Source of the DNA: a virus
Reading direction: 5' to 3' (one strand)
Length of the DNA: 64,000 nucleotides
Virus record (IMG/VR): IMGVR_UViG_3300036770_001423
Location: 1-64,000 of that record
Made by a program: the position numbers and the translations under genes
The notes under the pieces: model-generated
What the model was told of the DNA's origin: nothing
Databases searched by the model: none
The model's input: the letters and a program-made list of their open reading frames with translations, nothing else
Shown here: positions 12,558 through 44,366 of the stretch, piece by piece
How the letters are laid out: the number at the start of each line of letters is the position of its first letter
Numbering within the stretch: position 1 is the stretch's first letter

Positions 12558-14426
12558 TTATGTACCTGTTAATGTTCGCTGCTCTGCCCAGTCAGTACTT
12601 GCAACGTGATTTACGCCGTCTGTCAGTCTTACCCAACCAGTTACCACATACTGACTACCCGAAGTACCCGCAATGGCTGGCGTTGAATTGTTTACTCTGT
12701 CGCCTGCATGATAACGACCAGTAGATGGCTTGGCCGTTCCCATCTCATTCCGCCAAAAAGATGACGTTGCATTTCCTTTAAAATACGGCGTGGTGATATT
12801 GCTGAATGTGTTGTCGCGTCCGATATTGTTTCCGCCACCTGAAGCAGTGTATTCGTATATGCCGTTTTGCGCGTAACTAGACGACGACTGTTTGAACTTA
12901 TTGTTCTTAAACTCATTACCTGATGACGCACCACTTATACCAACAACTAAATATGACGCACCTAACTTACCACAATCGATAAACTCGTTTTGTTCAACCT
13001 TACAATCTATACAATCAATTAGTCGTATTGCCTGCTGCTCTAAAGATTGAAATTTATTATCTGTAACCGACATACCTATACAATTGTTCAAGCGCAAAGC
13101 AATCGTACCTGTCGCATCGCCAAAACCAACTTTATTTATCCAGTTACCAGAAATAATAAACCCTTCTGAACTATTCAGATCAGCTAGTACCCCCGTGTTG
13201 TACAGCGGCCAAGGTGTCACATGATTGGCTCTGATTGAACATTGATAAACGTTTCGCGATCCTGTACTAAACGATTGTGAAAATACTCCCGCTGTCATTC
13301 CGCAAAACTCATTACCTACAATTTCTACGTGGCGAACCTCCTGAGAACCAGATGAAGCATAATCCCCTGAGAGTCTTATTGCGTAAATAAGTCCAGTAGC
13401 TTCTTCTCTGGTGAATACGTTGTTCAATATTGCTGTGTTCCCAGAAAAATACCCGCAATCAACAGCAGCTACCCCTCCGTCTGTGGGGAAAAAATCATTG
13501 TGTTGAATAAGACTGTCCCCGCCGCGCTCAATAAAAATTCCACACGGGCCTTTAAAAACATTGTATAGATATTGAGCTACGCCATAGCCAAAATTATGTA
13601 TCCCCACACCGGTGTACCGCCAGAACCTACAACGTTCGACGTGCATGTGCATTGAGTAATTCAGATAAAGACAATCCTGTGCGAAACCTCCGCCATCAAA
13701 TGAAACACCTTCCACTTTTGAATAGAATGGTGCTATATCACTGTCTGAGCTATCGAAAACGTATGTGACCATTGCCGCCATTGCCGCACCAGCTTTTATA
13801 GTCGCCATCCCATTTGAAACGATGCTAACAGGGTTCGATTTTGCGAAATGTATATCGCTACCAGTCAGTGTGGTAGGTAAATCTGATGCACACTTAACAG
13901 TAACAGGGGTATTGATCAGATAAGTTGCACCGTCGGATAACAGCAGGTTACCACCAGTCAGTGATACCGCGTTCGCTGATGCCTGCACCGCTGGCTGGTC
14001 ATTTGCGATCCCGTCGCCAATCGCCCCCGCCATCTCCGGTGTTATGATCGTACCATCAAGCAGAACGAAAACGCCGGAGCCGGTTCCTGTCCAACCAAGC
14101 AACGCGGACAAGCCAGCTTGCGAGCCGCTCCACGCCACAATAGATTCAGGCGAGATGTGTGTAACGCCATTGTGCAACGCTTTAGACAAGTCGGTTCGGT
14201 AAATTAGTTGCCTGCCGCCTTTAGGCCGTGATGCCAGCGCGGCCCATCCGTCATAGTGAGAGGTCACATTATAAACAGTATCCGTTTGAGCATTTGCTGC
14301 CGTAGGCAGTGCTTTCAAATGCGATACGTGTGTATCAATTAAATTGTTAACTGAGGCCGCTAATTGCGGCCCAGAAGTATTTAATGGATCACCCACCACA
14401 CCAGCGTATAATTTTGTAATACTCAT
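12558..14426 (-). CDS. Tailspike, beta-helix, with shared N-terminal adapter, 622 aa
   Basis: Residues ~1-145 (SITKLYAGVVGDP, THVSHLKALP, ALHNGV) are an attachment domain clearly related to that of the plus-strand tailspike at 42174-44225. From GAIGDGIANDQPAVQ onwards it becomes a pectate-lyase-3-type right-handed beta-helix, with many short turn-strand repeats (GNEFCGMTAG, DNKFQSLEQQAIRL, QNEFIDCG). Such spikes bind and often cleave surface polysaccharide. AGAGGAAAGAA precedes the ATG. Confidence 0.82.
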   Translation of the reverse strand: MSITKLYAGVVGDPLNTSGPQLAASVNNLIDTHVSHLKALPTAANAQTDTVYNVTSHYDGWAALASRPKGGRQLIYRTDLSKALHNGVTHISPESIVAWSGSQAGLSALLGWTGTGSGVFVLLDGTIITPEMAGAIGDGIANDQPAVQASANAVSLTGGNLLLSDGATYLINTPVTVKCASDLPTTLTGSDIHFAKSNPVSIVSNGMATIKAGAAMAAMVTYVFDSSDSDIAPFYSKVEGVSFDGGGFAQDCLYLNYSMHMHVERCRFWRYTGVGIHNFGYGVAQYLYNVFKGPCGIFIERGGDSLIQHNDFFPTDGGVAAVDCGYFSGNTAILNNVFTREEATGLIYAIRLSGDYASSGSQEVRHVEIVGNEFCGMTAGVFSQSFSTGSRNVYQCSIRANHVTPWPLYNTGVLADLNSSEGFIISGNWINKVGFGDATGTIALRLNNCIGMSVTDNKFQSLEQQAIRLIDCIDCKVEQNEFIDCGKLGASYLVVGISGASSGNEFKNNKFKQSSSSYAQNGIYEYTASGGGNNIGRDNTFSNITTPYFKGNATSSFWRNEMGTAKPSTGRYHAGDRVNNSTPAIAGTSGSQYVVTGWVRLTDGVNHVASTDWAEQRTLTGT

Positions 14427-14438
14427 TTCTTTCCTCTG

Positions 14439-15056
14439 TTATGGTTGGTACAATACTGTTTCTTCTGACAACTGCCCTGTCGAAACTAAATACCCACCAA
14501 CTATTAAATCTGTATAAACAGGGTTGCTCTCAAACATCACTTGCTGTGTGTATGCTGCACCTGTGTAAGATTGTGCGGTATCAATTTCCATTGTATTACC
14601 AAACACTAAATCTACAGCAGCAGGTACTGTTTTACGGATAGTTGTTGCCTTGGAAACATACTCTGCCCCAAGAATCTCTAACACAACAGCAGCAGGGTAT
14701 TGCTCAGAGTATTTAATTGTTGTTGCACCAGTGATTTGTTTAGCAGCAGCAATAACTTCTTCTGGTGTACCCGATGAATTGTTTATAAATACTTTAGTAA
14801 GAATAGCACTTCTATATTCTTCATCAGTTCTACTTTGACGAGCTTCCTGAACTTCCTTCCCAATAATATCTAAAGCGTAGCCATACGCTGTATCAATACC
14901 GAGAGATTCAAGCAGAGTGAAGTATTCATTCTCCACTTCCTGAATCTGTGTGTGGAATATCTCAACTACTTTCTGAATGTTAGGGCTATTTCTAAATTGA
15001 TAGAGGAGCAAAGCTTTCGCTTGCTCCACATGATTTGTTATCTTAACTGGGTACAC
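14439..15056 (-). CDS. Baseplate protein, DUF2612-like (P2 gpI role), 205 aa
   Basis: The pattern LLYQFRNSPN, EVENEYFTLLES, and LDIIGKEVQEARQSRTDEEY is that of DUF2612 proteins, found just after baseplate J in contractile phages. They link the baseplate wedge to fibres. The start is GTG at 15056 (no ATG fits), with GGGGTAAG upstream. It is directly behind the baseplate J gene. Confidence 0.8.
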   Translation of the reverse strand: MYPVKITNHVEQAKALLLYQFRNSPNIQKVVEIFHTQIQEVENEYFTLLESLGIDTAYGYALDIIGKEVQEARQSRTDEEYRSAILTKVFINNSSGTPEEVIAAAKQITGATTIKYSEQYPAAVVLEILGAEYVSKATTIRKTVPAAVDLVFGNTMEIDTAQSYTGAAYTQQVMFESNPVYTDLIVGGYLVSTGQLSEETVLYQP

Positions 15057-20793: not shown

Positions 20794-21823
20794 CGTTTTG
20801 TTCAGGAGCGGTCGTTACTCACTCCCCGCTTTATTCAAGCTGCTGCATGTTTCCATGCAGACCAGACTATATCATCATCTCTATAAGATGCTTATCATTT
20901 CGAGTTCACTTGAACCCTACTCCCTTATGGGATAGTCGTTGAGCACAATACCAATTCGTTATATAATTCTTTATGTGTTTTACCTGAGGTGATATTTGCT
21001 ACATGGTGCCTGTTTATCTTACCACCAAATTCAGCAATTATTTCCTTAGTTGTTTTTCCAGAGATAAACATTAAAAGTACTTTTCTGACATCATCTTCAG
21101 TCAAATATTTTCTTGGTAAGTTAAACTCATAATCATTAGATATGTGAGACCAAGACTGTTTACTCTTAATTGAATATACTGTTGATTTATTTAAACCGGT
21201 AATTTTGCAAATTTCCATAATCTTCTTACCTTCACACAGAAGACTACATACTTGCCTTACCGTCTCATCACTAATGGTTGCCCTATATCCCAACCTACCA
21301 ATCAACATATTACCAAACTCAATACCGTGTTGGTAATTCCCTTTAGGGGATACCCACTCAAGATTCTCAATAGAATTGTTACGTCTATTTGAATCTTTAT
21401 GGTTAACTTGAGTAAGTGTTGTTGGATCTGTATTTTGGATAAACACAATAGCTAACGCTCTGTGTACATAACAACCTTTAGTTTTCTTTTCAACAGGGCA
21501 CCATACCTTGATTCTCAAATACCCGTCTCTGTCTGTGTATGGTGTTAATTTATTCAATGTGTAGCTGGAATAACAATTCCCGTCAACGTCTATAGACAAG
21601 AATTCATAATCTTTTACTTTATATAACATGTTGCCTCCATTTAGGAGGATTGGCATCTTCGCTGCGGATTGTCCAATCCTGACAAATTTTTACTATACTT
21701 GCAATAGTTAATTGCAACCCCACACTATATTACTATGTATGGTTAGTATTGTCAAGCTCTAAGGAGTTTCCCGCATTAGATAAGTTTTCTGTATACATTG
21801 CTGTATACAGGGGCTTTCTATAA
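20794..21823 (-). ncRNA. Group I intron in the tape measure gene
   Basis: This 1030-nt intron encodes an HNH endonuclease. The 5' exon ends in T (21824) and the intron ends in G (20794); removal restores PGGVQIFAK in phase. Core signatures on the minus strand are AATGCGGGAAACTCC (P4/P5-like, near 21770) and GATATAGTCTGG near 20865, followed by a P8-type TCTGCATGGAAACATGCAG hairpin. The latter is almost identical to the one in terminase intron 2, so the two are related. Confidence 0.88.
20925..21629 (-). CDS. Intron-encoded HNH homing endonuclease, 234 aa
   Basis: Contains VNHKDSNRRNNSIENLEWVS, the HNH core of NUMOD4/HNH-type homing enzymes, then two helix-turn-helix-like DNA-binding segments (KIMEICKITGLNKSTVYSIK and TKEIIAEFGGKINRHHVANI) of the NUMOD type. 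It would cut intronless tape-measure alleles. The start is the ATG of MLYKVKDYEF at 21629, with GGAGG seven bases upstream. Wholly inside the intron. Confidence 0.88.
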   Translation of the reverse strand: MLYKVKDYEFLSIDVDGNCYSSYTLNKLTPYTDRDGYLRIKVWCPVEKKTKGCYVHRALAIVFIQNTDPTTLTQVNHKDSNRRNNSIENLEWVSPKGNYQHGIEFGNMLIGRLGYRATISDETVRQVCSLLCEGKKIMEICKITGLNKSTVYSIKSKQSWSHISNDYEFNLPRKYLTEDDVRKVLLMFISGKTTKEIIAEFGGKINRHHVANITSGKTHKELYNELVLCSTTIP

Positions 21824-34987: not shown

Positions 34988-35237
34988 CGAAGTGTTCAAT
35001 AAGGTTCGTTAATCCTTACCAGCAGCACTACCTGCTTCTGCATGTCGCCATGCAGACCTGACTATATCATCACCCCATTAGGGTGTCTCCCGTTTCCACT
35101 CACTTGAGTGTACGCCTTTCGGCTAGTCGATGAACGTTCTCCGTTAGGAGCTTCGCTGCTGATTGTCTCTGTGAGAGTTCCCAGCAATTAGAGAGATTAT
35201 TCGACACATATTACTACGTGAAGCGACTATTTTACAA
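34988..35237 (-). ncRNA. Group I intron 2 of terL (at Walker B)
   Basis: 250-nt intron without ORF. The 5' exon ends GCGTTCGAT and the intron ends in G (34988). Joining gives FIAFDEGTQF. The core is visible on the minus strand: AATTGCTGGGAACTCTC (P4-P6) and GATATAGTCAGG (P7) followed by TCTGCATGGCGACATGCAG (P8), almost the same as in the tape-measure intron. Confidence 0.88.
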
Positions 35238-35537
35238 ATCGAACGCAATGAATGTATACTGTAAGCCTTGGTGATTGTACTTGTCTTTTTCTGTCTCCAT
35301 GTGAGACCATTTCATTTTAAAACCAGTAGGAAACTTAGCTTCTAATGAATGCTCTGACATACGAGGACGGAGTTCTGTGGGTAGCTGCATATACATATTA
35401 CGTGCAGTATCAAATACGCCACCAAGACCTTTGATTTGAACTGTTGTTCTGCGGAATACAATTGCGTTTGCTTTTGGGTCATCTACATAAAGCAAAGGGA
35501 GCATTTGTAATAGGAAACTTTTGCCGGAACCGGCTGC
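35238..35537 (-). CDS. terL: Terminase large subunit, exon 2
   Basis: This 100-codon middle exon runs from AAGSGKSFLLQMLPLLYVDD (rest of Walker A) through VFRRTTVQIKGLGGVFDTAR to QYTFIAFD, the Walker B strand lacking only its glutamate. Group I introns border both sides. Confidence 0.92.
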
Positions 35538-35779
35538 CAAATATTATGTAGTCGCTACACTACTCTGCCTTTTCAAGCAGGATCGGGTCATATCTTCATC
35601 CCAGAGGGAGTCTACCGTTTCGGATAATCAATCGCTTATTACCCTACGCCCTGACAAGGGCTGACCTCCACACACGCCATTACGCTTGGCTCGGTATTAG
35701 CATAGAGCGTAGCCCCTTAGCTTTCACCGAATTAGATAGATTCTTAGATACACATTACTGTGTTCTGTGGCGCAAGTTC
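35538..35779 (-). ncRNA. Group I intron 1 of terL (at Walker A)
   Basis: 242-nt intron without ORF. The 5' exon ends ATGGGTGGT and the intron ends in G (35538). Joining gives LIMGG-AAGSGKS. P3/P4-like CTAATTCGGTGAAAGC pairs with AATACCGAG, and a P7-like GAAGATATGACCC is visible on the minus strand. The core differs from the other three introns. Confidence 0.85.
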
Positions 35780-35945: not shown

Positions 35946-37097
35946 CTAATCTGGCGTAATATACTTTAACAATATGTCTAATACAAGACTGAAGTCTTTA
36001 CGGTGGAATGTCTCTGTATAACCAGAACCCATTTCTTGTTTTGTAATTATACCTCTTTCGATACCAGAAGATATAATCTCACTCTCAAGTTTGCGTATAA
36101 CGTACCCATCAGGGTTCTCAAGATAGTATATTACAGATAAGGGGTATTTACATTTCTGTTGTATCTGCTTTAATCTTTTATCTAAATTATTCGTTATACC
36201 AAATTTCAGCACATCGTCAGTAACTTTCAATAAATAAAAAGTACCTCCCATAGTGCTTCTATAACCAACCCTTTGATTCGAGCATCTAGGGCAACCAGCG
36301 GCATAAAGATGACTGTTAGGTGCTTGAGAAAACACACCGTGATCTCTGCATATGATGTCTATCTTAGTATGTTGATTTTTGTAATCAACTAATGAATAGT
36401 CATATTTATCACCATGCACTTTCTTAGCTAATGATATGTATTCTTCTGTTGTGAACTTAAACATCTCTGCTTTAGCTAGTGAAGCACACTTAGTACAACC
36501 AATTGTAGTTAAATGGTGATCAGCCCTTTGAGTGACTACGCCGTGTAACTTACATTCGTATGTAATATACTTACTCTTACCAACATACTCAGTAATAGAG
36601 TAGTCATATTTATCCCCATGAACTTGTTTTGCTTTTTCTACATATTGTTCTTTACTAAATACTCTACTTTTAGAGTTATTGACAGTAGCACAAGATTTGC
36701 AACCAACTTTGCCTGCTGTATGTCCTGACAGTTCTTGTCTAAATACTCCGTGGTCAGGGCAAATAATATCTACAATATCTTTAACTTTGACATTATCGGG
36801 TATAAGACTATAATCATATTTACCGTTATGGGCGCATGTTGCTTTATCAATAAAGTACTGCCTAGGTTTTCTGGTAGCTTCTGCGATCCTTTCTTTGGCG
36901 CAGAGCTTACACCCATGTCTAGCGGATGTGTGACTGTTTGGGGTCACTTCAAATACAAAGTCGTGCTTAATACAACGAACTTTAACTTTATTACAGGCTT
37001 TAGTGTAAACAGACAAAGAATAATCATACTTATCTCCGTGAACACTTCTAGCTTTAATGATAAACGTTTCTAAATCTTCTATTTCGTGCTTTGCCAA
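35946..37097 (-). CDS. Homing endonuclease: four zinc-binding repeats plus GIY-YIG-like domain, 383 aa
   Basis: Four ~60-residue repeats each carry HGDKYDYS (or a variant), a C..HG or C..H motif and a closing GC..C pair. This is the DUF723-type DNA-binding repeat. Residues ~290-383 form a compact GIY-YIG-type nuclease (GGTFYLLKVTDDVLKFGITN, then RLKQIQQKCKYP and the catalytic E in ESEII). The start is a TTG at 37097, preceded by AAGG. Free-standing just upstream of terL, it may mobilise a terL intron in trans. Confidence 0.78.
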   Translation of the reverse strand: MAKHEIEDLETFIIKARSVHGDKYDYSLSVYTKACNKVKVRCIKHDFVFEVTPNSHTSARHGCKLCAKERIAEATRKPRQYFIDKATCAHNGKYDYSLIPDNVKVKDIVDIICPDHGVFRQELSGHTAGKVGCKSCATVNNSKSRVFSKEQYVEKAKQVHGDKYDYSITEYVGKSKYITYECKLHGVVTQRADHHLTTIGCTKCASLAKAEMFKFTTEEYISLAKKVHGDKYDYSLVDYKNQHTKIDIICRDHGVFSQAPNSHLYAAGCPRCSNQRVGYRSTMGGTFYLLKVTDDVLKFGITNNLDKRLKQIQQKCKYPLSVIYYLENPDGYVIRKLESEIISSGIERGIITKQEMGSGYTETFHRKDFSLVLDILLKYITPD

Positions 37098-40109: not shown

Positions 40110-41429
40110 TTATCCTTTAGCAACTTTGCTAGACACTTTACAATTGTTTCCACCAATAACAGAGTCATAAGCGTAGAACATAATTTTACGTAGCATGTCC
40201 TCGTTCTTACGCTGAACAATGAAACCGTCATGTAGAGGAATCAGTATTTCATCTTCCAATAAAACTCGCTCTATCACAATATCACACATCTGGGATTCGA
40301 TGTTCATTAACTCTAATCCTGTGTTTGGTCCTGTGGTATTCATCAAATAACCGTTGTGTTCAATTAATTTATCAATAATTGTATGCACAACTCTACCTTC
40401 TGGCCACTTACCTTCAGCCTTAGCTTTCTTGACTTCTGACTTCAGAGGTTCTTCAGTTAACGCACTGCTTAGAGCTGCCATAGCAGATGTAGGATTGTCT
40501 GTGTTAATTATCATCAATAACCCTTTCTTACTAATTGCCCTGAGTAATGATTTGTCCATACCTTCAAACTCAATACCATAAGGGTCATAGTTGTCTGGGA
40601 ATGTTACACCAGCTAAATCTGCCAAGATAGATGGATGCAAATGTTTATAATCAAGTTCAACACAAGGTTCTTTGTTTATGGTTATCTCTAAACGTGTAGC
40701 AGCGCTCTGAGCTTGCTGTGAATTAGTACCCACCAAATAGTTCCTCCCGCCATACTGGTAACTTGAGTTATTATAGATCTTCTTAACACTGAAATCAAGC
40801 TTATTGTCATGCAAACAGATCTCATTTTCTATCATAGATAGATTTAGTTTAGTAAGAATCCTAATAATGTCTTTTTGCTTTTCTGTAAGCTTCTTAGAAA
40901 TAAGATTGCCATCCTCGTCTCTAATATCCATAACACTCAGTGGTAGAGTGTCAGATTTCTCAGCTAAAGGCGTAAACAGGTCTATAAGAGCAGGGGACAA
41001 CTTCACTGCTGATGTAAATTTGTTACCAACCTTTACCTGCCTAATCTTACCTTTAGACTTTTTAAAAGATTCTAGGTCAAACTCCCAAAACACTCCGCCA
41101 TAAGACATAAAGCAATCTTTCTTAAAGACTAAGAAATCGCATAACAACATAGTGTATTTGTGACTTACCTTTCTGTTTACCTTAGTGCCGTTGTAGATCA
41201 GCGGTAAACTATATACCACCTTCTTTCTTGGGATATAAACCATATCCTTTCCTTTAGATACAACGAACACTGTGTTCTTAACGAAACAACATACTGCCTT
41301 GTAGCTTAGGTCTTTAGTCTGGTTTGTTATTACTACTTCTTTACTCTCTAGCCACTCTATGAATTCTTCATGCAATGAGTTACTAATACTATTTAAATAT
41401 TTAGGTATAACATAGTCCAATAGATACAA
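40110..41429 (-). CDS. Family-A-polymerase-like palm protein, 439 aa
   Basis: Motifs in the order of family A polymerases: ELDYKHLHPSI (motif A-like, D260 and H265), RAISKKGLLMIIN (R297 to K302, O-helix-like), NIESQMCDIV (Q380, D383) and LIPLHDGFIV (motif C-like H400-D401). The first ~220 residues are unlike the known 3'-5' exonuclease. The O-helix tyrosine is absent or displaced. It may be a specialised polymerase or an inactive relative. GGAGG precedes the ATG. It lies directly downstream of the XRE regulator on the same strand. Function is inferred from motifs alone. Confidence 0.55.
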   Translation of the reverse strand: MYLLDYVIPKYLNSISNSLHEEFIEWLESKEVVITNQTKDLSYKAVCCFVKNTVFVVSKGKDMVYIPRKKVVYSLPLIYNGTKVNRKVSHKYTMLLCDFLVFKKDCFMSYGGVFWEFDLESFKKSKGKIRQVKVGNKFTSAVKLSPALIDLFTPLAEKSDTLPLSVMDIRDEDGNLISKKLTEKQKDIIRILTKLNLSMIENEICLHDNKLDFSVKKIYNNSSYQYGGRNYLVGTNSQQAQSAATRLEITINKEPCVELDYKHLHPSILADLAGVTFPDNYDPYGIEFEGMDKSLLRAISKKGLLMIINTDNPTSAMAALSSALTEEPLKSEVKKAKAEGKWPEGRVVHTIIDKLIEHNGYLMNTTGPNTGLELMNIESQMCDIVIERVLLEDEILIPLHDGFIVQRKNEDMLRKIMFYAYDSVIGGNNCKVSSKVAKG

Positions 41430-41544: not shown

Positions 41545-41763
41545 TCAGACCTTGTGTAAAAACATCTCATATTCTAAGTCAAATACAGCAGCAATCTCAA
41601 GTAATTTATCGAGAGATACGTTCTCACCTTTAAGCCAGAAACTAACCATCTGCCTTGATACCCCGAGTTTCTTAGCCAGATCGGATTGTGATGTTCCAGA
41701 GAATTTTAATTCATCGTTAATATCATCAATCAATTTTAATTTAAGTTCTTGTAAATTCTTCAT
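41545..41763 (-). CDS. XRE/Cro-type transcriptional regulator, 72 aa
   Basis: A single helix-turn-helix domain: TSQSDLAKKLGVSRQMVSFW followed by LDKLLEIAAVFDLE. Cro-sized, so probably a dimeric repressor. The start is the ATG of MKNLQEL at 41763, with AGGAG six bases upstream. It is transcribed divergently from the tailspike cassette; two palindromes lie between them. It could control the cassette, itself, or both. Confidence 0.82.
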   Translation of the reverse strand: MKNLQELKLKLIDDINDELKFSGTSQSDLAKKLGVSRQMVSFWLKGENVSLDKLLEIAAVFDLEYEMFLHKV

Positions 41764-41783
41764 ACTAACTCCTTTACTCCTAT

Positions 41784-41811
41784 AGTATAACACGTATTAG
41801 AATATTGTCAA
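41784..41811 (-). promoter_or_regulatory. Sigma-70-type promoter for the XRE gene
   Basis: Minus strand TTGACA (41811-41806), 16-bp spacer, TATACT (41789-41784). Confidence 0.65.
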
Positions 41812-41846
41812 TAAATATTATTGTCAACTAATTACTTGACAAGACC

Positions 41847-41872
41847 AAACGCAAATATTTAAAATTGCGTTT
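41847..41872. promoter_or_regulatory. Palindrome, possible operator
   Basis: AAACGCAA (41847-41854) and TTGCGTTT (41865-41872), perfect 8-bp arms with a ten-base AT-only spacer, between the two divergent promoters. Confidence 0.45.
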
Positions 41873-41927
41873 ACCTCAACAGCTACCCACATTACCACAC
41901 CAAATATCCAATGTCAACTTATTTCGA

Positions 41928-41956
41928 TTGACAAAACACACTTATTGTGTTACTCT
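41928..41956 (+). promoter_or_regulatory. Promoter of the tailspike cassette with embedded palindrome
   Basis: TTGACA (41928-41933), 17-bp spacer, TACTCT (41951-41956). The spacer holds the palindrome AACACA-CTTAT-TGTGTT (41935-41951), which is ideally placed for repressor binding. Confidence 0.6.
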
Positions 41957-41996
41957 TTTGGATGTTAAATGTCTTAACAATTAAGAGAATATCACA

Positions 41997-42170
41997 ATGA
42001 GAGATATTGTGCAAGTAAATGCGACAATTTACAGCCCGTCTGCTGGGATAATTAGTGTTGGAAGTAAGATAGAGCCAATAAACCCTGTAGAAACAGACGG
42101 GTTTTTAGATGAATATAGCTATATGTTTGATGAAAGTATTTTATCAGACGATGTTGAATTATGGAGTTAA
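41997..42170 (+). CDS. Small protein preceding the second tailspike, 57 aa
   Basis: MRDIVQVNATIYSPSAGIIS at the start; acidic C-terminus ending DDVELWS. It has an AAGAGAAT site, and three bases separate its stop from the tailspike ATG, whose own GGAG lies in its last codons. The two are therefore coupled. It is not similar to anything recognised; it may be a chaperone, adapter or leader. Confidence 0.6.
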   Translation: MRDIVQVNATIYSPSAGIISVGSKIEPINPVETDGFLDEYSYMFDESILSDDVELWS

Positions 42171-42173
42171 TGG

Positions 42174-44225
42174 ATGTCAATTAATAAATTAGTTGCTGAT
42201 TACAAAGGTAGTCCTAGTAACAGTAAAGGTAGTAATATCAGGGATGCTGTGAACCAGCTGATTGACGCGCATGTATCGCACCTGAAGTCGCTTCCTGTCG
42301 CTGCTAAGGCGCAGACGGATACGGTTTATAACGTGATTGGGTTCTATGCTGGCAGCACCAAAGGTGGTAGCCGGTTTATTTACGACCAAAACATGTCAAA
42401 AGCCATGCACAATGGCGGCACTGTAATAGCGCCTGAAGCACTGGCAGCGTGGAGTGGAACACATGCTGACTTGACCACGCTTCTGGTGTGGTATGGTACA
42501 GGTTCTGGCTGTTATGTCTCAATAGAACAAAATATAAATGCCGCCATGTTTGGTGCGGTCTGTGACGGGACGTTAGACGATGTGCAATCAATTGAAGCTG
42601 CCTTTAACTTTGCTAACACACTTATAAATGGAAGTGTGACACTTGGTGCATATCACAGAATAAGCCGTTCTATTAAATTCAGAAAGTATGTAACTGTAAT
42701 CGGAAATGGCAGCTGGATTCTGAATTACGGGACAGAAGATGCTTGTATTCCGCATCCTGACGACGGAATAGTTCTGGCAAGAGTAAGCGGATTCAATATC
42801 ACTTATCAGAACTACGGATCTCCTTTGAACCCAAATAGCCCACCATACACAGTTGATAAAACAAAAAAGCTGGGTAATCAAATAGTATGGTCTCATATGT
42901 CAACTTTCATAGCTGACGGTCTAAAACATTCATCGTCAGGAAGGTACTTCCAAGACTTCGAGCGGATCAATGTTTACTGGCATCGATACGGATTTCATAT
43001 GCTTGGCTGGACAATTCAAGGCAGAAACTGCCGTGCTCTATACAACGCGAGAGGTTTCTTTGGGTCTAACGCTGCCATTAATTCCGTCAGATACCCTGTT
43101 CACGCACTACAGCTTAATGATTGTCACGCGATAGCGAACACCGAAAACGGGGTAGATATTCGGTTCGCCGACGGCGTCAATCTGAAGGGCTGTCACAGCG
43201 AAAAAAACTATTCCCGCAATATCAGAGCTGAAGGTGTCCGTGGGTTAACACTAGATCAGTTTTATCAAGAGTATTCGGACGGCAGTATCTTACTGTTTAA
43301 CAGTCAGGGTGTTGATATTAATGGATACAGCTCTGGGAACAGACAAGTTTACAAAGGTTATGCTAAATCAGCTCAGGCATACTACGAAGAAACGATTGTT
43401 AGCGGCACCTCGGTAAATGTAACGGCATATAACTCCAGTACCAAAATCGGTATTGATAACTTCGACAGTGTACCCACAGCTGAAATTGCTGTAATCAGAA
43501 ATGATGGATATTTACCACCAGCTAACTGGTCAAGGTCAAGCTCAACTATCACGGTACCGTCTGCGGTCGCCGGTGATGTTATATCGGTTATTGCATATGC
43601 CTACAGAAACCCTGCGGTTGACCTTGCTGCGATCCAAGACAAATACGAGCTTGGTGCGAACTATCCGCTTGAGGTTCAGCACGCCCAAAACGTCCAGTTT
43701 GGCGGCTTTGTCACCAGCTATCGCACAGGTCCTGCGCTGACCAACGATTTTGATTTAGCGAACCTCGCCGCCAGTAAAGATATCTATTACAACGCATTTC
43801 TGAAAGACACTACAGTATATAATGTCCCAAGCATGTATTTTCCGTGGGGTACAGGTTTTGCTCTAAAGCAGAATTTCAACAGAGGCTTGGTGATAAAGAA
43901 CGATACAGACCCAAATGTTGAAGTCAGCTTTACAGGAACGCAGCACTATCCACAAAGTGGTCAAGTAGGTACGATATCTCTGCCCAACGCAAATGCTACA
44001 CTTTTCATGGTGATTTCTGCAAATGGCTGTGCAATGTTCACATTTGACGGTAACGGGTCAATTTATCCTGCCGCTGTTTCAGGACAAAACTACACAATAC
44101 AGCAAACGAATGCGGCTACAGCTAACAAGTTAAACTTGTATAGTGCCGGGGCCAACCTGTTAGGATTTGATAACAGGCTCGGGTATGCTACTCAGTTCAC
44201 ACTTTTACGACTATCTGATAATTAA
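42174..44225 (+). CDS. Second tailspike with shared N-terminal adapter, 683 aa
   Basis: Residues ~1-140 (INKLVADYKGSPS, DAHVSHLKSLP, AKAQTDTVYNV, MSKAMHNGG) closely match the attachment domain of the minus-strand tailspike 12558-14426. From NAAMFGAVCDGTLDDVQSIE on it is a right-handed beta-helix (SLRDCHAIANTENGVDIRFA-like turns), with a C-terminal beta region (residues ~400-683) that differs completely. It lies outside the virion block, on the opposite strand, with its own promoter and terminator. Confidence 0.85.
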   Translation: MSINKLVADYKGSPSNSKGSNIRDAVNQLIDAHVSHLKSLPVAAKAQTDTVYNVIGFYAGSTKGGSRFIYDQNMSKAMHNGGTVIAPEALAAWSGTHADLTTLLVWYGTGSGCYVSIEQNINAAMFGAVCDGTLDDVQSIEAAFNFANTLINGSVTLGAYHRISRSIKFRKYVTVIGNGSWILNYGTEDACIPHPDDGIVLARVSGFNITYQNYGSPLNPNSPPYTVDKTKKLGNQIVWSHMSTFIADGLKHSSSGRYFQDFERINVYWHRYGFHMLGWTIQGRNCRALYNARGFFGSNAAINSVRYPVHALQLNDCHAIANTENGVDIRFADGVNLKGCHSEKNYSRNIRAEGVRGLTLDQFYQEYSDGSILLFNSQGVDINGYSSGNRQVYKGYAKSAQAYYEETIVSGTSVNVTAYNSSTKIGIDNFDSVPTAEIAVIRNDGYLPPANWSRSSSTITVPSAVAGDVISVIAYAYRNPAVDLAAIQDKYELGANYPLEVQHAQNVQFGGFVTSYRTGPALTNDFDLANLAASKDIYYNAFLKDTTVYNVPSMYFPWGTGFALKQNFNRGLVIKNDTDPNVEVSFTGTQHYPQSGQVGTISLPNANATLFMVISANGCAMFTFDGNGSIYPAAVSGQNYTIQQTNAATANKLNLYSAGANLLGFDNRLGYATQFTLLRLSDN

Positions 44226-44287
44226 AAGTGTTAAGAATATAAGTTAAGCATAAAATTATTAACTTAGATATCAGTTTTCTAAACCAA

Positions 44288-44312
44288 AGCCCGCCTCCGT
44301 GCGGGCTTTTTC
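44288..44312 (+). terminator. Terminator of the tailspike cassette
   Basis: AGCCCGC / GCGGGCT stem with a six-base loop, followed by TTTTTC. It closes the 41.9-44.3 kb unit. Confidence 0.82.
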
Positions 44313-44366
44313 ATTTCTAAGATTCCTTAATCAGTAACCCCTCTTTCTAAATTCCACAAATACCTA

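Follow-up and report, generated by a model that had tools for sequence, protein, structure and literature searches.

A probable moron-type accessory tailspike unit with a putative translational timer in a Myoalterovirus-like phage

The phage genome analysed here probably harbours a moron-type accessory tailspike unit, i.e., a second spike (spike2) that would dock on the same baseplate as the resident spike (spike1) and would be timed by an RNA hairpin, in an apparently lytic phage; taken as a whole, we consider this reading moderately probable. A local promoter, a hairpin, a 57-aa ORF, spike2 and a terminator would have been inserted together into a divergent early-promoter junction. Spike2, being anchored like spike1, would most likely occupy the same baseplate site, and its different receptor part would give some virions another surface specificity. 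The 57-aa protein would be translated first, coupled to spike2, and is likely to be an accessory or adaptor for such spikes. RNA from the upstream early promoters would fold and hide the start site of the 57-aa ORF, and RNA from the local promoter, which lacks the left arm of the hairpin, would be translated.

Changes of host range in phages are usually thought of as swaps of receptor domains inside the block of tail genes. The phage described here carries a complete additional spike, compatible in its anchor, as an independent unit away from the tail genes, and in another genus near-identical phages differ in having or lacking a like unit. An accessory spike of this kind opens a way to a second host specificity with the resident spike retained. 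Should the hairpin act as predicted, it also shows how a module of this kind can cope with the wrong temporal region. The presence of a complete unit at a spot that is empty in close relatives suggests that marine phages pass tailspikes among one another as plug-in modules.

The window, i.e., the whole stretch of 64,000 bases that was analysed, is the first part (bases 1-64000) of a metagenomic virus record 94,296 bases long. Its portal, capsid, baseplate and terminase genes lie on the minus strand at about 5-35 kb (the virion block) and have relatives in Alteromonas phage PT11-V22 (51% for the portal, 55% for the capsid). This closest named relative was judged strictly lytic by its authors, who found no lysogeny genes (PMC7289586). 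No integrase was found among the window-phage genes scanned, and the phage is apparently lytic and Myoalterovirus-like. The early-type genes run apart from about 41.8 kb, one set leftward and the other rightward, and several TTGACA promoter-like sites there point outwards. No late promoter motif was found for this phage, in which introns obscure the stretch upstream of terminase.

A Group I intron lies within the terminase gene (35038-35257, minus strand; Rfam RF00028, 83 bits), and from the positions of an N-terminal terminase fragment (35232-35540) and a homing-type endonuclease (35946-37097) the gene seems to be split more than once. The large subunit of ribonucleotide reductase is encoded by two plus-strand ORFs (58-1143 and 1439-2356) which match one family consecutively, at positions 120-488 and then 489-795, across a 0.3 kb gap with no Rfam intron match. 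An HNH endonuclease gene (20925-21656, minus strand), with its own TTGACA promoter and flanks that look like intron, sits among the genes of the tape-measure region. Further along the record (70577-71017, minus strand), a protein akin to the ‘anti-sigma factor’ of PT11-V22 matches HNH endonucleases and Srd/sigma70-decoy families.

An insert at a divergent early-gene junction

The layout of the unit and its surroundings is given in Table 1. As an earlier note on this DNA had described, a tailspike gene lies outside the virion block and on the opposite strand, with a small coupled ORF before it, a terminator of its own behind it, and a divergent, Cro-sized XRE gene beside it. The same note described a promoter with a palindrome in its spacer. 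The promoter-like site has a perfect -35 and a weak -10 (3/6). The palindrome AACACACTTATTGTGTT (41935-41951, arms AACACA/TGTGTT) is exact, but a perfect arm of at least 6 appears in 59% of dinucleotide shuffles of the 41764-41996 region, so that this palindrome means little alone. Promoters of this sigma70-like type serve many genes of the phage.

Table 1. Positions of the accessory insert, the junction elements and the two tailspike genes in the window
Feature	Coordinates	Strand	Description
Spike1, virion-block tailspike	12558..14426	-	622 aa, beta-helix
XRE (Cro/CI-type HTH) gene	41545..41763	-	72 aa; Pfam HTH_3 E=4e-11
XRE promoter-like site	41784..41811	-	TTGACA, 16 nt, TATACT, extended -10; 11/12 consensus
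Upstream rightward promoter-like site	41836	+	consensus match only
Junction palindrome AAACGCAA-N10-TTGCGTTT	41847..41872		8 bp; junction element, conserved
Leftward conserved promoter-like site	41917-41889	leftward	TTGACA-17-TAATGT
Spike promoter-like site	41928..41956	+	TTGACA (41928-41933), 17 nt, TACTCT (41951-41956), TG-extended -10; consensus match
Accessory insert	41936..44348	+	all sequence between flanks that adjoin in related contigs
61-nt hairpin	41941..42001	+	spans local -10, expected RNA start and SD/ATG of 57-aa ORF
57-aa ORF	41997..42170	+	stop 3 nt before spike2 ATG; coupled to spike2
Spike2	42174..44225	+	683 aa; aa 1-157 are the anchor common with spike1
Intrinsic terminator, GC-rich	44286..44309	+	9-bp stem, 6 G-C pairs, then T run

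In three related contigs, G001 (93 kb), G003 and G012, the last of which was located by its junction patterns, the divergent junction is uninterrupted and the base equivalent to 41935 runs directly into the equivalent of 44349. Both edges of the insert have AAA, hence its exact ends are uncertain by 3 nt. The junctions of G001 and G003 are identical to each other and were counted as one haplotype. Spike2 was not found in any of these contigs, of which G003 and G012 are partial. Because the junctions are uninterrupted and G012 has an orthologue of the XRE gene without spike2, the sequences indicate that the unit, of about 2.41 kb, came or went as one piece with the XRE gene outside it. With two haplotypes lacking the unit, parsimony, and parsimony only, favours a gain on the branch of the window phage over a loss in the related contigs.

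The unit thus lies between genes that adjoin in relatives, as morons do, and its base composition is unlike that of its neighbours: spike2 has a G+C of 44.5% against 37-38% in the flanking early regions, though spike1 is similar at 45.6%. As to signals of its own, the terminator is strong, and the promoter is a consensus match that straddles the edge of the insert, its -35 lying in the flank common to the relatives and its weak -10 in the insert. The case for an accessory unit is strong.

Anchor and receptor part of the second spike

The anchors of spike2 and spike1 are 50% identical over 157 aa, and the receptor parts beyond are unrelated. Both spikes group in a single supported clade together with the spikes that related phages encode in their virion blocks, and the anchor of spike2 has its full length and retains the positions that are conserved among virion spikes. 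The genes neighbouring spike1 are ~95% identical in the relatives, and the spikes differ past the anchor. The label of tailspike was given to spike2 for its anchor, common with the beta-helix spike1, and for weak PHROG tail matches. No full-length relatives of spike2 were found in IMG/VR (by peptide patterns) or in PDB, and its receptor part, examined for a beta-helical, trimeric fold, gave no Pfam, NCBIfam or PDB match and no detectable homologue, including on plasmids; an AlphaFold2 model of spike2 from a 10-row alignment was too poor to use (pLDDT 29.3).

The common anchor points to common descent of the spikes, from which docking is predicted. Spike2 is therefore likely, by its anchor, to be a second receptor-binding protein, and we infer that it is probably a virion component. 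The last codons of the 57-aa ORF (ELWS) contain the Shine-Dalgarno sequence of spike2. The 57-aa protein may have originated as a detached tail copy of the baseplate protein at 14439-15056; in this comparison the 70-aa form in phage HM1 scored above nearly all shuffles, but the 57-aa protein was only borderline. A supposed relative, L061, was a false match.

The XRE gene and the hairpin

The XRE gene probably starts at the ATG at 41763; the GTG at 41793 lies across the -10 of the gene's own promoter-like site. In G012 its orthologue (42% over 50 aa) lies at the same place with no spike, and a promoter-like site similar to that of the XRE gene can be aligned. A 440-aa protein of unknown function (phrog_4756; 40110-41429, minus strand) is encoded beside the XRE gene in the window, and its orthologue is found beside the XRE orthologue at the same place in G012. 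The 440-aa gene also moves, lying elsewhere in G001 and occurring in two copies in an HM1-like phage; a pattern search of IMG/VR gave no match to it, though relatives exist.

The palindrome AAACGCAA/TTGCGTTT, with a chance probability of about 0.05, is found in G001, G003 and G012, although the first two lack the XRE gene there. In RNA transcribed leftward from the conserved site at 41917-41889, this palindrome would fold as a 5' leader hairpin. The region 41764-41996 as a whole contains 10 perfect inverted-repeat arms of at least 6, a number which none of 500 shuffles reached (average 1.07). These repeats include TTGTCAA-N8-TTGACAA, and some pair outward-facing -35 elements. Clusters of TTGTCAA were tried as XRE half-sites and rejected, being mostly -35 elements of outward promoters, and were therefore left out as operators.

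The earlier note had further proposed that the spike is controlled by its own XRE switch, and this was not borne out. The XRE gene and the spike do not travel together across the genomes compared, and no XRE relative was found in the spike units of Pseudoalteromonas phage HM1 and Shewanella phages 1/4 and 1/40. As the XRE gene occurs without the spike in G012 and the palindrome without the XRE gene in G001 and G003, the gene does not appear to be a dedicated spike switch, and by its position in these contigs it goes with the junction and lies outside the insert. An effect of the XRE protein on the spike promoter is still conceivable.

The 61-nt hairpin (-21.6 kcal/mol, z -3.96) was absent from the earlier note, and its left part is overlapped by the AACACA/TGTGTT palindrome. 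The inverted repeat at 41944-41998 was matched in 9 of 1000 shuffles. By predicted folding, opening the start region of the 57-aa ORF would cost 8-14 kcal/mol in RNA begun upstream and about 2.3 kcal/mol if the RNA begins near 41962, where the RNA of the local promoter is expected to start. This opening cost is the highest of 140 gene starts, the 139 others, all with a plausible ribosome site, having a mean of 4.9 (sd 2.4). In folding predictions only, the Shine-Dalgarno sequence and AUG are closed in the long RNA and open in the local-promoter RNA, as in a T4-type timer; the hairpin is present in one copy and so offers no covariation. A T4-like translational timer is therefore plausible and, from the folding costs by RNA 5' end together with the T4 arrangement, we think that the hairpin would stop expression of the cassette from early transcripts that read into it. 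In HM1 the hairpin is not conserved (opening cost 4-7 kcal/mol), and its lack in a unit that lies near terminase would fit, as one case, a need for it only in the early region.

Alternatives and comparison with known systems

The plainest alternative is that the hairpin is functionless and that spike2, made from its sigma70-like promoter, simply joins the virions. The perfect -35, the use of the same promoter type at many genes of the phage and the lack of such a hairpin in HM1 are all in keeping with this, but the hairpin is more stable than shuffled sequence, spans precisely the local -10, the RNA start and the start codon, and closes the costliest start of those examined, and we consider a functionless hairpin rather unlikely. 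A dedicated switch, in which the XRE protein binds the palindromes, sets the timing of spike2 and lets the phage alternate its receptor-binding proteins, would account for the divergent XRE gene, the palindrome-rich intergenic region and the palindrome within the spike promoter spacer. It is improbable in view of the XRE gene at the same place in G012 with no spike, the 8-bp palindrome in G001 and G003 with no XRE gene, the spike units of HM1, 1/4 and 1/40 without an XRE relative, and a spacer palindrome that alone is expected by chance.

A role mainly outside the virion, as a free depolymerase or an anti-superinfection factor with the anchor as a relic, would suit the location among early-type genes and the sigma70-like promoter, but a relic should decay and this anchor is full-length with the conserved positions of virion spikes, which makes such a role very improbable. 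We give hardly any credence to an assembly artefact, in which a spike segment was wrongly joined into the contig; the record is of metagenome origin, but collinear phage sequence resumes on both sides, the anchor belongs to this genus and a parallel insert is found in the cultured phage HM1.

In HM1, a 70-aa ORF homologous to the 57-aa ORF overlaps the start of a gene for a 466-aa spike, which shares 46% identity with spike2 over its first 39 aa. Over the junction of small ORF and spike, the DNA of HM1 and the window is 64% identical over 166 nt, and twelve bases, GAATTATGGAGT, which encode ELWS and contain the spike Shine-Dalgarno sequence, are identical in both. The two-gene stretch is missing from phage J2-1 and its flanks are 98% identical, i.e., it is a clean insert in HM1, and these two described phages form a natural with/without pair. 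The HM1 pair is therefore like the window unit in its small ORF, the first 39 aa of its spike, its coupling motif and its absence from a near-identical phage, and unlike it in lying near terminase, in having another receptor part and in lacking a hairpin that closes the start; the short stretch inspected after the spike yielded no recognisable terminator. Together with the uninterrupted site in G001, G003 and G012, this insert upholds the description of a moron-like, self-contained tailspike unit.

Gene S14_109 of Shewanella phage 1/4 also resembles spike2: it stands alone on the opposite strand, has a terminator and belongs to the same anchor family, and it is not at the corresponding place in Shewanella phage 1/40. 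It differs in having no homologue of the 57-aa protein, and the place in 1/40 is filled by other genes, which makes this a replacement rather than a clean insertion. A further spike is encoded elsewhere in each of the two Shewanella phages, and in 1/40 this second spike operon lies between two genes annotated as anti-repressor Ant (L020 4147-11224). S140_132 of 1/40 (59 aa) was considered as a third member of the small-ORF family and was not supported. A wider reading, which we offer tentatively, is of a mobile receptor-binding module, i.e., an anchor-compatible tailspike with a small coupled partner, that moves between unrelated lytic marine myoviruses and in the window phage has its own T4-style RNA timer; such a module could sit in the early region yet be made in time for assembly.

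In phage T4, an RNA helix closes the ribosome site of genes e, soc, 49, I-TevI and segB in long early transcripts, and a local promoter inside the left arm gives RNA without the helix, an arrangement by which lysozyme and homing endonucleases are delayed (PMC3014915, PMC2988022). The window unit shares with these genes a predicted helix over the ribosome site and a putative local promoter whose RNA would lack the left arm. It differs in its sigma70-like promoter, which is not known to be late, in that the gene unit is a spike, and in that its mechanism is predicted only.

Morons are autonomous accessory units of phages (PMC6316719). The window unit is like them in its promoter-like site and terminator, its insertion between genes adjoining in relatives and its G+C above that of its early-region neighbours (44% vs 37-38%), and unlike them in that its product is a tailspike of virion type and that the nearest named relative of its phage was judged lytic. 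The moron is the closest known kind, and a lytic phage with a moron that encodes a tailspike under a translational timer would be a new form of it.
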